Source of the DNA: Candidatus Omnitrophota bacterium
GTDB taxonomy: Bacteria; Omnitrophota; Gorgyraeia; Zapsychrales; Fredricksoniimonadaceae
Length of the DNA stretch: 33,478 nucleotides
Assembly (NCBI GenBank): GCA_903861305.1
Contig: CAIOTT010000046.1
Coordinates: 1-33,478 of the forward strand
Reading direction: 5' to 3'
Below, piece after piece: positions 6,995 through 31,235 of this stretch (its first letter is position 1; every line of letters begins with the position of its first letter). The position numbers and the translations under genes are program-made. Below the pieces are notes generated by a model, which was not told where the DNA came from, made no database searches, and worked only from the letters and a program-made list of their open reading frames with translations.

Positions 6995-7468
6995 ATGGCC
7001 CAAGCGCCCGATAACAGCCTTATAACCGAGATCATGACCCTTAAGAATGCCCCGTTGGAGGCTATAAAGGCCAAATACGCCGCACTGTACGGCCAAGACA
7101 GCCCTTCATCCAGCAACAAGATCTTCCTGTGGCGTAAGATCGCCTATCGCCTTCAGGAGCTCGAATACGGCGGTTTGCCTGATGACACCAAGAACAGGAT
7201 CAACGAACTTATCGAGCGCTATGATCCGGTCAATAACAAAACCCTGCGACCCAAAACAGTAATGGAAAGAAATAGCAATAACGGACGAGATAGACGCCTC
7301 CCCATCCCCGGAGCCATCATAAGGAAGGAATACAAGGATCAGCTCATTGAGGTCAAAGTTCTGGAGAATGGATTTGAATATCAGGGGAAAAGTTATAAAA
7401 CACTCTCGGCGGTCGCCACGGCGGTGACCGGAGATCACTTAAATGGATATACTTTTTTCAAGCCATGA
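6995..7468 (+). CDS. DUF2924 family protein, recombinase partner
   Basis: 157 aa with a good ribosome site (AAAGGAG eight bases before the ATG). The N-terminal half (ITEIMTLKNAPLEAIKAKY, NKIFLWRKIAYRLQELEYGGL) and the C-terminal half (RLPIPGAIIRKEY, VLENGFEYQGKSYKTLSAVA, TGDHLNGYTFF) match the pattern of DUF2924 proteins. These are typically encoded immediately upstream of large serine recombinases in mobile elements. The biochemical role is unknown; the C-terminal part resembles small DNA-associated modules found in phage-type loci. The gene overlaps the recombinase start by ATGA (7465-7468), so the two are translationally coupled and probably act together. Confidence 0.85.
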   Translation: MAQAPDNSLITEIMTLKNAPLEAIKAKYAALYGQDSPSSSNKIFLWRKIAYRLQELEYGGLPDDTKNRINELIERYDPVNNKTLRPKTVMERNSNNGRDRRLPIPGAIIRKEYKDQLIEVKVLENGFEYQGKSYKTLSAVATAVTGDHLNGYTFFKP

Positions 7469-9171
7469 CAAACGAACCCGAACAAAAAAGGCATCTTGTA
7501 TGCGCCATTTACACCCGTAAATCCTCATCCGAAGGATTGGATCAGGAGTTCAGCTCTCTTGATAACCAACGCGAATCAGCCGCAAGCTACATCAAAAGCC
7601 AGCAACATGAAGGCTGGACAGCCTCCAGTGAGCTTTACGATGACGGCGGCTTCACGGGAGCCAACGTTGAAAGGCCCGGCCTCCAGAAGCTCTTGAGTCA
7701 TATCAAGGAAGGAAAGATCAATTGCGTGGTGGTCTACAAAGTGGACCGGCTGTCCCGATCACTGCTTGATTTCAGCCAGCTTCTTGAATTCTTTGATAAA
7801 AACAACGTCGTCTTCGTTTCCATTACCCAGCATTTCAATACCAATACGTCCATGGGACGGTTAACCCTCAACATCCTTCTTTCCTTCGCTCAGTTTGAGC
7901 GTGAAATAATCAGCGAACGCACAAAAGACAAACTTAGCGCCGCACGCAAGCGCGGACAATGGCTCGGCGGCCACCCACCGTTCGGCTACATGCGCGACCC
8001 CAAAGAAAATCGCAAGATCATTATCAACCCTGCCGAAGTTGACATGGTGCGCAAAGTCTATGCCCTTTATCTGGAAAAGAATTCCGCACTGGAAGTCGCG
8101 CAAGAGATCACCGCCACCGGCTACCGCACCCCCTCTTGGCCAACCAAGACCGGCAAAACCTTCGGAAACAAGAAGCTCAGCATTTCAAATATTGTTCGCA
8201 TGCTCAAGAACCACACCTACATTGGCAAAGCCAACTATCAAGGAAAAATCTATGACGGCCTTCAATCTGCCATCATCGACGAGGAAACATTCAATAAAGT
8301 CCAAGATCGAATGTCTCATCACCGTTTAGACCGAAAGCCATTCAAGAATAAGGATTGCTCCGGGCTTTTATCCAAGGTCCTCAAATGCAACGCCTGCGGC
8401 AGCGCCATGATCCACACCTACACCCTGAAGAAGAACCGCTTCAAATACCGCTATTACCTGTGCTCGAATGCCCAGAAACGCGGCTACGCTGAATGCCCTG
8501 TCCGCTACGTTAACGCCCAGCTGATGGAGGAACGGATCGAACAGATCCTGCGCGGCGAAGTTAAGACCCTCAAGAATTCACCGCACAAGGCAGAGTCCGA
8601 AGCCATCCTATCGCCCATCTGGGATTCATTGTTCTTCGAAGAGAAACGCAGGATCATCCGCACGCTCATCAAGACAGCTGATTATGATTCAACCGCCAAA
8701 AAGATCGGCATGGTTTTGAACGGAACCACCGAACGAATGGAATTCGATTCAAACATCAAGAAGATCCACGCCAACACCATCAAAGGAAAGCAGCGACAGC
8801 TTGATCATGAACCAGCGATCAGAAAACAGCTTCTTCTGGCCCACCACCTGAACCAGAACCTTTCTGATGGCAACATAAAAGACCTGAATCAGGCCTCCGC
8901 CTGGCTGGGCTTCAGGCAAACAAGTCTAAGTCACATGCTTGGGCTCTTGCATTTATCGCCGTCAATCCAGACGGAGATCATAACTGACAATGCACCGATC
9001 CTCGACGCGATCCCCGAATACAAACTCCGCAACATCTCCTCCGAAGCGGACTGGACCAAACAGGCCGTCCTCTGGCAAGAGATCAAAACCTCTCTCTCCT
9101 TTAAAAGTTCGATATCTGAACTCCTCAAGCCAGACAGCGCCATTCCTAGTAAATGGATTCTACAATCCTGA
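7465..9171 (+). CDS. Large serine recombinase (site-specific integrase/invertase type)
   Basis: 568 aa. The N-terminal resolvase domain (about 10-155) carries the nucleophile in YTRKS (S20), then DDGGFTG, VYKVDRLSR and GRLTLNILLSFAQFERE. The recombinase domain follows (GQWLGGHPPFGYM, IVRMLKNHTYIGK). A zinc ribbon is visible as CNACGSAM and YYLCSNAQKRGYAECP. Residues about 440-520 look like a ParB-type helix-turn-helix (QASAWLGFRQTSLSHMLGLLHLSPSIQTEII), an extension often seen in this subfamily. The enzyme would cut and religate DNA at att-type sites through a covalent serine link. All key residues are present and the frame is intact, so it may be active. No other phage or transfer genes are nearby, which suggests a minimal or relic element. 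Confidence 0.94.
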   Translation: MTNEPEQKRHLVCAIYTRKSSSEGLDQEFSSLDNQRESAASYIKSQQHEGWTASSELYDDGGFTGANVERPGLQKLLSHIKEGKINCVVVYKVDRLSRSLLDFSQLLEFFDKNNVVFVSITQHFNTNTSMGRLTLNILLSFAQFEREIISERTKDKLSAARKRGQWLGGHPPFGYMRDPKENRKIIINPAEVDMVRKVYALYLEKNSALEVAQEITATGYRTPSWPTKTGKTFGNKKLSISNIVRMLKNHTYIGKANYQGKIYDGLQSAIIDEETFNKVQDRMSHHRLDRKPFKNKDCSGLLSKVLKCNACGSAMIHTYTLKKNRFKYRYYLCSNAQKRGYAECPVRYVNAQLMEERIEQILRGEVKTLKNSPHKAESEAILSPIWDSLFFEEKRRIIRTLIKTADYDSTAKKIGMVLNGTTERMEFDSNIKKIHANTIKGKQRQLDHEPAIRKQLLLAHHLNQNLSDGNIKDLNQASAWLGFRQTSLSHMLGLLHLSPSIQTEIITDNAPILDAIPEYKLRNISSEADWTKQAVLWQEIKTSLSFKSSISELLKPDSAIPSKWILQS

Positions 9172-9253
9172 AAAATAGCACCAAATTAGCCCCAAAGCCC
9201 CTTTACCAAACATCCTTTACTAAGCCGCCATTTGGAGATAAAGAGATGCATTC

Positions 9254-9282
9254 TCGACGGACGTCGAAGGTCTCAGACGTCT
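9254..9282. repeat. Small palindrome cluster downstream of the recombinase
   Basis: TCGACG and CGTCGA (9254-9267, two-base centre) are followed by AGACGTCT (9275-9282). Flanking pentamers GCATT (9248-9252) and AATGC (9292-9296) are also inverted. The dyad symmetry and the position just after a serine recombinase make this a candidate recognition or att-like site, but such short palindromes occur by chance. Confidence 0.3.
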
Positions 9283-9360
9283 CTATTGAACAATGCGACA
9301 ACGATCTAAAATTTCAGGAATAAGCAATGCAGTAAGTCTTTGCAACATGCGGACATAGGA

Positions 9361-9393
9361 AAGGCCCTGAACAGTTAACCCGTCCAGGGCCTT
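9361..9393. terminator. Hairpin between convergent recombinase and tRNA-Ser
   Basis: AAGGCCCTG (9361-9369) and CAGGGCCTT (9385-9393) form a 9-bp stem with a 15-base loop. It separates the rightward recombinase from the leftward tRNA-Ser, where a bidirectional terminator would be expected. The T-tract is weak on both strands, so efficiency is uncertain. Confidence 0.5.
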
Positions 9394-9431
9394 ACTTATC
9401 TCTCATCGTTTACCGACGGGAGAATAGAAAA

Positions 9432-9520
9432 CGGAGAGGGAGGGATTCGAACCCTCGGACCAGGTCACCCCAGTCAACTTCTTAGCAGGAAGTTGCAATC
9501 GGCCACTCTGCCACCTCTCC
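9432..9520 (-). tRNA. tRNA-Ser (anticodon GCU)
   Basis: The minus-strand sequence starts GGAGAGGTGGCAGAGTGGCC and ends CCCTCTCCG. The seven-base acceptor stem (GGAGAGG with CCTCTCC) is complete and the discriminator is G, as usual for Ser. The anticodon stem ACTTC/GAAGT encloses the loop CTGCTAA, giving anticodon GCU, which reads AGC and AGU. The long variable arm is that of a class II tRNA, and the T arm is GAGGGTTCGAATCCCTC. CCA is not encoded and must be added enzymatically. Its first five bases belong to the perfect palindrome at 9516-9546. Confidence 0.96.
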
Positions 9521-13793: not shown

Positions 13794-14447
13794 TTAATTC
13801 ATCAAGCGGACGCTCCGGCTTGTCGAGGCCGTCAACATCGCCCCCGACATGGACCTTTTCTGTCCGCTGAGAGTAAATGTCAGCTCGGTTCCTGCCACGG
13901 AAAAATGCATGTTCGTCATGCTGTCCGCTATGGTTGCGCTGGCAACAACATTCAACGCCGGACTAAGCACACTGCGCACAATAGCCCCGCTCGCGTTAAG
14001 GGCATACTGGATATACTTGTATTCCACGGTCGAGCATACCCCGTTGGCGTCAGTACAACCCACAACATTGGTCGTCCTGCTGTCACACCCCCATGTCAGC
14101 TGCGCCCCCCAATGAGCAGGATAACTGGTTGCATCAAGGAAAGTCGAGGTAGCATCGCACATCACGGGGACGGAAAAACGGATGATATCCGAACCGTTGA
14201 CCCCGGTCCCGGCCGTGATGACATACTGCGCGGCACCCGTGCCGTCATGACCGGTATGTGAGAGCTCCCAGGCCATTTTCTCGTTAGCGTTCCTGAAATT
14301 GTTCCGCAACTGGATGCCGGCGTCAGCATTGTTGAAGGCGGCCTGCGCCGAAAGTACAAAACCGAAAATAATGGCGGTCAACACCACAAGGATGGCGATG
14401 GAAACAAGCATCTCGACCAATGTAAAACCCTGCCGGCGTCTACCCAT
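13794..14447 (-). CDS. PilW-like prepilin
   Basis: About 217 aa from the ATG at 14447 (ribosome site AGAGG). The prepilin cleavage site is GRRRQG/FTLVEM, with Glu at +5, followed by the hydrophobic helix LVSIAILVVLTAIIFGFVL. The globular part includes four Cys in or near MCDAT, GCDSR, GCTDANGVCS, so disulfides are likely outside the cell. Proteins of this size and layout correspond to minor pilins of the PilW/GspJ class, which initiate pilus or pseudopilus assembly. The start overlaps the stop of the upstream prepilin by eight bases, consistent with translational coupling. An in-frame upstream start at 14471 is rejected because it lacks a ribosome site. Confidence 0.9.
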   Translation of the reverse strand: MGRRRQGFTLVEMLVSIAILVVLTAIIFGFVLSAQAAFNNADAGIQLRNNFRNANEKMAWELSHTGHDGTGAAQYVITAGTGVNGSDIIRFSVPVMCDATSTFLDATSYPAHWGAQLTWGCDSRTTNVVGCTDANGVCSTVEYKYIQYALNASGAIVRSVLSPALNVVASATIADSMTNMHFSVAGTELTFTLSGQKRSMSGAMLTASTSRSVRLMN

Positions 14448-14889
14448 ATATCCTCTCAATGATCTGGACATAAGAATCGATCTGTCCGTTGCCGTTCTTG
14501 TCTTCCCCGTTATTAAGGACCCCGTTCAGGTTCGCGTCTTCGCCGATCACGCGGCCGTCGGAAAGCCTCCAGCAGAACACGACCTTCACCTCAACAAGCT
14601 TCGAGTTCGAATTGTCAACGTAGATCACGCCGATGCCGTTGAGCCCCGTGATCGTGAATGTGTGGTTGTTATAGTTGGTAAAAATATTCTCAAAGGTCGA
14701 GGCCTTGATCTCCTCGACCTTGTTCTTCACGCCCTGGACCGCGATGGTCGAACGCATCCCCATCTGGTTAAGTTCCATGCAGGCGGAAAAACTGGACAGG
14801 ATGCCGGTGGCCGCCACAAGAAAAACTCCCGCGGCAATAAGCACCTCAACAAGGGTCATTCCTGATCTTTTCCGTGAACACTGTGCCAT
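14440..14889 (-). CDS. PilV/GspI-like prepilin with EF-hand-like loops
   Basis: 149 aa from the ATG at 14889; GAGAGG lies at the right distance, whereas ATG 14895 is too close to it and 14952 has no site. The prepilin peptidase motif is SRKRSG/MTLVEVL, with Glu at +5, then the helix LIAAGVFLVAATGILSSFS. A stretch near residue 120-140 (DANLNGVLNNGEDKNGNGQID) has the D-x-N-x-N-G / D-x-N-x-N-G spacing of calcium-binding dockerin or EF-hand-like loops, suggesting calcium-stabilised folding. It is the first gene after the c-di-GMP riboswitch and terminator, so it should show the regulation most directly. Inner-membrane precursor, then assembled into a pilus or pseudopilus. Confidence 0.9.
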   Translation of the reverse strand: MAQCSRKRSGMTLVEVLIAAGVFLVAATGILSSFSACMELNQMGMRSTIAVQGVKNKVEEIKASTFENIFTNYNNHTFTITGLNGIGVIYVDNSNSKLVEVKVVFCWRLSDGRVIGEDANLNGVLNNGEDKNGNGQIDSYVQIIERIYG

Positions 14890-14961
14890 AAACATTCCTC
14901 TCTGACCATCCCTGGTGTTTGACGTATTCTTTGTATTATACGCCACAACCACAAAAGGAAT

Positions 14962-14995
14962 AAAAAAAAGCCTGTCTTGATGGGGACAGGCTTTT
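14962..14995 (-). terminator. Intrinsic terminator of the riboswitch expression platform
   Basis: On the minus strand the 11-bp stem AAAAGCCTGTC/GACAGGCTTTT (14985-14995 with 14966-14976) has an eight-base loop and runs into a tract of eight Ts. It sits between the c-di-GMP aptamer and the first prepilin gene. Its loop and part of its 5' arm (TCCCCATCA) are exactly complementary to aptamer bases at 15059-15067. Confidence 0.92.
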
Positions 14996-15037
14996 GAACA
15001 AACAAAACTATGCGCTTCGGCTCAAACCAAGCGTTCG

Positions 15038-15116
15038 GCCTTTTCGGCAACCCGGCTATCCCCATCATAAGGACCCGTGGCTTTGCGTCCCGCCATTACT
15101 GACGGTTTGCGGTATC
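15038..15116 (-). promoter_or_regulatory. Cyclic di-GMP-I riboswitch aptamer (GEMM)
   Basis: The minus strand carries the hallmarks of the GEMM-I aptamer: GCAAACC (15110-15104), the core GGGACGCAAAGCC (15091-15079) and the 3' element ATAGCCGGGTTGCCG. The helix CCGTCA/TGGCGG is closed by GTAA, a GNRA tetraloop as expected for docking into the tetraloop receptor. A possible promoter lies upstream, and an intrinsic terminator lies about 45 bases downstream, followed by three pilin-like genes. This class binds c-di-GMP and is known in other bacteria to control pili, motility and surface genes. The ON or OFF polarity must be measured. Boundaries are approximate. Confidence 0.92.
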
Positions 15117-15138
15117 GAGGCCGCTTTCAACCACTTAT

Positions 15139-15144
15139 AGTATA
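15139..15144 (-). promoter_or_regulatory. Candidate -10 box for the riboswitch transcript
   Basis: TATACT on the minus strand, about 25 bases before the aptamer. No good -35 sits at the standard distance. It lies in the six-base-arm palindrome TTATAG...CTATAA (15135-15152). It would give the pilin operon its own start after the cpaF gene, though read-through from cpaF is also possible. Confidence 0.45.
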
Positions 15145-30917: not shown

Positions 30918-31235
30918 TTATTTAAGAATAGCTTTCAAGCGGGCTTCAGAAGAATGGTTCATCTTCGTGAAATAAAAAGCGAACCCCTCACCTCCGGCGA
31001 TACGGGAAATGCGCGCCAGGCCTTCAATAACATGGCCTGCGCTGCCGGGACACTGGATGGAAAATCCGATCTCATCATTAAGCTTGAGATAAACACTCGC
31101 CTTGATCACAATAAAGGCGCTTTTGGAAGAAATATCCTTTAATTTCCCCAGAAGGGTCAATTGCGACCCGATGCTGATGTGGACGGGGATATCGCTGGTA
31201 ACACGTTTTTCCTGGCGCTGTTCATTGAAATTCAT
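30918..31235 (-). CDS. PilZ-domain protein, probable c-di-GMP receptor
   Basis: 105 aa. The N-terminal RxxxR is R7-Q-E-K-R11, followed by VPVHIS-type strands (DIPVHISIG), then D34-I-S36-S-K-S39, which corresponds to the (D/N)xSxxG motif with Ser in place of Gly. The rest is a small beta barrel. PilZ domains bind c-di-GMP through these two motifs; the substituted Gly may lower affinity or abolish binding. It overlaps the SPFH gene by four bases (ATGA), so the two are coupled. With the riboswitch and GGDEF-EAL protein it makes a third c-di-GMP-related gene in the window. Confidence 0.8.
   Translation of the reverse strand: MNFNEQRQEKRVTSDIPVHISIGSQLTLLGKLKDISSKSAFIVIKASVYLKLNDEIGFSIQCPGSAGHVIEGLARISRIAGGEGFAFYFTKMNHSSEARLKAILK

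Follow-up and report, generated by a model that had tools for sequence, protein, structure and literature searches.

The prepilin locus and its leader

The window, a stretch of 33,478 nucleotides from a Candidatus Omnitrophota genome (contig CAIOTT010000046.1), carries on its minus strand a proposed operon of four genes, the first of which starts with an ATG at 14889 (Table 1). An earlier note on this DNA had described the first three genes as PilV-, PilW- and PilX-like prepilin genes, and this description is borne out by the PF07963 matches in the first two and by the DUF4900 domain of the PilX-like protein. NCBIfam models give generic prepilin or sub-threshold GspI/ComG matches alone for the operon genes, which fits type IV minor pilins or type II secretion pseudopilins. 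The GGDEF-EAL enzyme and the PilZ protein also reported for the window are found at 574-2544 and 30918-31235, respectively.

A riboswitch-type aptamer lies between a T2SSE-type ATPase gene (16546-15185) and the prepilin-like genes on the minus strand. Relatives of this ATPase gene in named genomes, at 49-94% identity, all come from Candidatus Omnitrophota/Omnitrophica, confirming the suspected host phylum. The encoded ATPase is closer to the FlaI/TadA type than to PilB or GspE, with a FlaI score of 218 bits that is below the cut-off of 550, and a tRNA follows the gene in most relatives. Elsewhere in the window, the region 6995-9520 has the appearance of the end of an integrated element: it encodes a large serine recombinase (7465-9171, plus strand) and a DUF2924 protein beside a tRNA (9520-9432, minus strand). 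Two plus-strand matches to plastid RNAs, at 9432 and 10199, were set aside as antisense to tRNAs.

Downstream of the aptamer, the leader contains an intrinsic terminator at exactly the place given in the earlier note, with the arms AAAAGCCUGUC-loop-GACAGGCUUUUUUUU read from 14995 to 14962, followed by a likely ribosome-binding site. No strong promoter was found upstream of the aptamer, where the hexamer TATACT could serve as a -10 element. Of 100 hits, 59% have a TATAAT-like hexamer in the 45 nt preceding the aptamer, compared to 30% of shuffled sequences, and these hexamers are loosely positioned. The fold of the whole leader is more stable than shuffled versions with a z of -1.7, and because this gain is mild, no claim is built on it.

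Table 1. Positions of the proposed operon genes and leader elements in the window, with the support for each.
Feature	Positions	Strand	Support
Possible -10 element, TATACT, 23 nt upstream of the aptamer	15139-15144	-	Moderate; standard spacing gives no good -35 hexamer
c-di-GMP-I-type riboswitch aptamer (P1, P2 with GUAA loop, P3)	15042-15121	-	RF03167 59.0 bits and RF01051 63.2 bits; conserved in L033/L115, L083 and L084
J1/2, CGAUACCG; G20-equivalent base is C (15111); one base shorter than consensus	15110-15117	-	Alignments, orthologue comparison
P2 hairpin, CCGUCA-GUAA-UGGCGG	15090-15105	-	Sequence; third pair G-C changed to C-G in L084
Proposed antiterminator strand, UGAUGGGGAUAG, made up of the P3 loop and 3′ strand	15056-15067	-	Pairs with the 5′ side of the terminator over 12 bp, -19.9 kcal/mol
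Intrinsic terminator, 11-bp stem and U run	14962-14995	-	Sequence and fold; about -15 kcal/mol
Terminator 5′ arm and loop, CUGUCCCCAUCA, complement of the P3 strand	14978-14989	-	Complementarity, folding
AGAGGA, likely ribosome-binding site for the PilV-like gene	14896-14901	-	Sequence
PilV-like prepilin, 149 aa	14440-14889	-	PF07963, E 2e-5; orthologues 83% (L033/L115), 66% (L083)
PilW-like prepilin, 225 aa	13794-14471	-	PF07963, E 1e-8; 76% (L033/L115), 56% (L083)
PilX-like protein with DUF4900, 572 aa	12064-13782	-	PF16241, E 8e-11; 82% (L033/L115), 62% (L083)
Final gene of the proposed operon; small protein, 101 aa	11793-12098	-	59% identical and in the same place in L033/L115; no family match

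The aptamer and its conservation

The covariance-model search of the window with RF01051 (c-di-GMP-I), which had been proposed as a check, gave a match of 63.2 bits at 15121-15043 on the minus strand, well over the cut-off of 35. With cmscan, RF03167 (c-di-GMP-I-GGC) matched 15120-15042 on the same strand with 59.0 bits, exactly its cut-off of 59, at an E value of 1.2e-11. The GEMM-I aptamer that the earlier note had placed at 15038-15116 is therefore real, with coordinates that were off by about 4-5 nt. Both of the elements on which its identification was based, the core GGGACGCAAAGCC and a GTAA tetraloop, are present; the GUAA at 15099-15096 caps a 6-bp P2 as a GNRA-type tetraloop, P2 carries a compensatory change in L084, and P3 folds. 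Equivalents of A47 and C92, as well as the G21-C46 and C22-G45 pairs, are also present in the aptamer, their positions being assigned via Vc2 numbering.

The same aptamer and terminator precede the homologous operon in three other species of the genus, namely G131 (L033/L115), G116 (L083), and G384 (L084), in the last of which the operon is more diverged, at about 25% protein identity. The segments GCAAAC, GACGCAAAG, and UGCCG are invariant across the four species, and the RF03167 scores of the four orthologues (window, 59.0; L083, 59.1; L084, 60.0; L115, 58.7 bits) lie around the cut-off of 59. RF01051 had no match in any of 14 control genomes, and this result, together with retention of the aptamer in the three species just named, indicates that the match is not due to chance. 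Adjacency of the T2SSE ATPase gene and the switch is confined to the window and G131. In G116 and G384 the gene was not seen in the flank of about 0.6 kb preceding the switch, and its counterparts in other genera have a tRNA or various other genes downstream and no switch. The switch thus belongs to, and travels with, the pilin operon, and the possibility that the terminator is merely the end of the upstream T2SSE gene was rejected on these observations.

The aptamer, the terminator, the complementarity between them described below, their conservation and the operon are established by computation, and we can conclude that the window RNA is a real, conserved riboswitch and a variant member of a well-known kind. 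It is probably functional, and we infer its ligand, its switching and its effect on pili from the sequence.

The missing G20 and the candidate ligand

In Vc2 numbering, J1/2 ends with ...A18 N19 G20 G21 C22 A23 A24 A25. The window reads A-C-C-G-C-A-A-A, in which a C precedes G21, a departure that the earlier note did not contain. At the G20 column of the Rfam alignment there is a mismatch in the window and a gap in L083, L084, and L115, and CGAUACCGCAAACC is identical in all four species; the equivalent of G20, which contacts the G-alpha of the ligand, is thus missing, as a C or a gap, in the window and its orthologues. Among 100 Omnitrophota hits, a sample composed of fetched family hits and the best-scoring hits of the phylum, the base at position 20 is G in 84, A in nine, C in six, and U in one, so that G20 is a preferred, not a universal, feature of RF01051 aptamers. 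About a dozen further C20 aptamers were found by a pattern scan of 384 genomes, in unrelated families and before varied genes.

The main conserved bases in contact with the ligand are G20, A47, A48, and C92 (PMC3764141). Mutation of G20 in Vc2 causes a 30,000-fold loss of binding (PMC4744006), whereas changing the same base to A or C in Cd1 has no large effect (PMC9262584). As for the enzymes that could supply a ligand, the three GGDEF domains found in the genome, which is 68% complete, have the GHxxGD of c-di-GMP synthases, and the GS of Hypr enzymes is absent from all three. Since the G20 equivalent is missing, c-di-GMP is a candidate and not an established ligand. The divergent G20 data of Vc2 and Cd1, the spread of C20, and the GHxxGD domains keep it the likeliest one, which we hold with reasonable though far from complete confidence, and allow for a changed ligand.

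The main alternative to c-di-GMP retains the same switch and the same OFF logic with a pocket that, having lost G20, has shifted to 3′,3′-cGAMP, another dinucleotide, or a different nucleotide. This is suggested by the invariance of C20 and the short J1/2 in four species despite operon proteins at 56-66% and about 25% identity, and by the precedent of G20A as a known route to cGAMP (PMC6274999). Aptamers with the canonical G20 are also present in genomes of the same genus, for example L062 and L079 in G116, so two specificities could coexist. On the other hand, 3′,3′-cGAMP riboswitches (GEMM-Ib) have A at position 20 and the window has C, the A47 and C92 equivalents are retained, and the C20 aptamers found in the rest of the phylum occur sporadically before varied genes, as drift or affinity tuning predicts. 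No Hypr-type GGDEF is among the three domains found in the 68% complete genome, and cGAMP sensing through such an enzyme was set aside for this reason. We regard a shifted ligand as unlikely, albeit worth serious attention. It is similarly doubtful, but conceivable, that the genus-specific aptamer with C20 and a short J1/2 is a natural specificity variant by which a signal other than c-di-GMP turns off the minor-pilin operon, with canonical c-di-GMP-I switches operating alongside.

Pairing between P3 and the terminator

The second feature absent from the earlier note is that the loop and 3′ strand of P3 are complementary to the 5′ arm and loop of the terminator. The resulting helix of the window is unmatched by any swapped partner taken from dissimilar terminators. 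In L083 the pairing is ACGGGGACAG/CUGUCCCCGU, in which U-A is replaced by C-G through changes on both sides, and in L084 the 3′ arm of the terminator is changed and the P3/5′-arm pairing is retained. Several other genera form this pairing with different sequences, GGAAUAGG/CCUAUUCC in L082, L092, and L098 and GAAGAAAUAGG/CCUAUUUCUUC in L094, and many other Omnitrophota switches have no strong antiterminator of this kind. For the best contiguous helices in 55 Omnitrophota aptamer/terminator pairs, the mean energy was -7.87 kcal/mol with the own partner versus -5.70 (sd 0.37) kcal/mol with swapped partners; none of 5000 permutations was as good, a figure that is not a strict probability because the test pools related sequences. 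Contiguous helices were used instead of aptamer-terminator duplex energies with internal loops, which were noisy (8 of 60 below 0.05).

Imposed-state folding of the four orthologues showed that, when the 5′ arm alone has emerged, the antiterminator is better than or approximately equal to P3 (-56.9 versus -49.2 in the window), and that once the 3′ arm is made, P3 together with the terminator is approximately equal or better. A point against switching by this pairing is that the full-length free RNA is predicted to fold with the terminator already formed, which would require the switch to act kinetically. As in Cd1, the terminator is accompanied by a mutually exclusive antiterminator that breaks the aptamer, as indicated by the helix, its covariation, and the permutation test.

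A mechanism can be proposed from these pairings. Ligand binding would lock P3, the 5′ arm of the terminator would remain available to its 3′ partner, and transcription would stop (OFF). When ligand is not bound, the emerging 5′ arm would invade P3 through the P3 loop and form the 12-bp antiterminator with UGAUGGGGAUAG, permitting read-through to the pilin operon (ON). An intact P3 is required by the bound ligand and a disrupted one by the antiterminator, which gives OFF as the predicted sign. We therefore favor, with a probability of roughly 0.6, a transcription-terminating c-di-GMP-I (GEMM-I) switch in the 5′ leader of a minor-pilin operon, which would be turned OFF by a ligand, most likely c-di-GMP, bound in a pocket that has no G20.

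An aptamer whose fold survives with binding lost or very weak, followed by a terminator that acts as a fixed attenuator or as the end of the upstream gene, would account for the loss of one ligand contact and for a terminator that is strong by itself, and nonfunctional class I switches do exist in C. difficile 630 (PMC6200980). Such decay is nevertheless improbable given the near-invariant core in four species, the compensatory changes in both P2 and the antiterminator helix, and a switch that stays with the pilin operon, not with the upstream gene. An ON switch, in which the ligand favors read-through as in the GEMM-I-type aptamer before the pilM pilus genes of Geobacter (PMC9262584), is more improbable still, because the aptamer and terminator of the window can coexist, unlike those of pilM, which are mutually exclusive, and the sole strong competitor of the terminator needs P3 broken.

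Comparison with known riboswitches

The favored OFF switch is most similar to Cd1, in which the aptamer and terminator coexist and an antiterminator competes (PMC9262584). The two share P1, P2, and P3, the GNRA loop on P2, the A47 and C92 equivalents, the coexisting terminator and competing antiterminator, and OFF control, which is predicted for the window. In contrast to Cd1 and the RF01051 consensus, the window aptamer has no G20 equivalent and a J1/2 shorter by one base, and its host phylum and controlled genes differ. The antiterminators also differ: that of the window uses the P3 loop and 3′ strand, whereas that of Cd1 reaches the binding-pocket bases near the 3′ end of the aptamer. Orthologue scores of 58.7-60.0 bits around the cut-off of 59 bring the aptamer close to c-di-GMP-I-GGC (RF03167), but the bases at the GGC of that model read CGC in the window, and RF01051 gives slightly more bits.

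The earlier note had invoked GEMM control of pili in clostridia as an established precedent. This does not hold, since the precedent, Cdi-2-4 before pilA1, is a class II ON switch and not GEMM-I, and the class I switches of C. difficile uniformly act as OFF switches (PMC6200980). Cdi-2-4 has in common with the window the control of type IV pilin transcription by c-di-GMP, predicted in the case of the window, through an unrelated aptamer class and with the ON sign. The closest GEMM-I-type precedent for an aptamer before pilus genes is the pilM switch of Geobacter metallireducens, a cGAMP-sensing ON switch (PMC9262584). The window aptamer belongs to the same superfamily as pilM and GEMM-Ib and likewise precedes pilus genes; those aptamers have A20 and pilM is ON, whereas the window has C and is predicted to be OFF.

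Distribution in Omnitrophota

The occurrence of a GEMM aptamer in Omnitrophota had been presented as an extension of the class, which is true, but it is not a matter of one locus: RF01051 matches at E <= 0.001 are present in 338 of 384 sampled genomes of the phylum (329 over the cut-off), and in the family to which the window belongs 27 of 32 genomes have a match. A prepilin gene lies within 1.5 kb downstream of 11 of 70 family aptamer hits compared to none of 55 control stretches, the controls being stretches upstream of aptamer hits on the opposite strand with family and phylum loci pooled, which suggests that control of prepilin genes by such aptamers is common here and not a single oddity. 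In another genus of the family, the aptamers L087 and L091 (G264:C22 and G270:C45) have the canonical G20 and a different P3 type and stand before PilV-like genes, after which a PilX-like protein with weak similarity to that of the window (23-24%) is encoded; such canonical aptamers before PilV/PilX-like operons count in favor of c-di-GMP control.

Several other arrangements were observed. In one genus, L085, L090, and L092 (G264, G270, and G386) have A at the G20 position, conserved before response-regulator genes, and related response-regulator genes in L077, L078, and L075 are preceded by G20 aptamers; the A20 aptamers are possible cGAMP-type or relaxed switches. In each of L077 (G355:C77) and L078 (G393:C110), a response-regulator gene is flanked by a convergent pair of c-di-GMP-I aptamers separated by about 1.3-1.6 kb, and L030 (G318:C4:24542-24783) has tandem c-di-GMP-I aptamers 67 nt apart. 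A second, very conserved c-di-GMP-I-type RNA is found in the window's own genome (L002:1147-1408, on G000:C44) and in L015, L026, L027, L072, L107-L112, and L114. Its enlarged P3 reaches about 100 nt in the family, a strong terminator is close by, and a downstream strand, CCUUUAUCGGC, is complementary to the 5′ strand of its own aptamer, GCCGAUAAAGG. The genes downstream vary, including those for a small Cys-rich protein and a GH1 glycosidase, so this RNA may stand alone or act as a switch by a different logic.

No paper joining Omnitrophota with a riboswitch or with c-di-GMP was found in a partial literature collection. The window offers a concrete predicted mechanism by which a pilin operon would be turned OFF, whereas the c-di-GMP-II switch of pilA1 and the cGAMP switch of pilM have the opposite sign. 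The conserved loss of G20 is a natural test of the role of this base in ligand choice, on which the data from Vc2 and Cd1 disagree. More broadly, the distribution of these aptamers suggests that the sensing of cyclic dinucleotides by RNA is a general regulatory layer in the mostly uncultured Omnitrophota.
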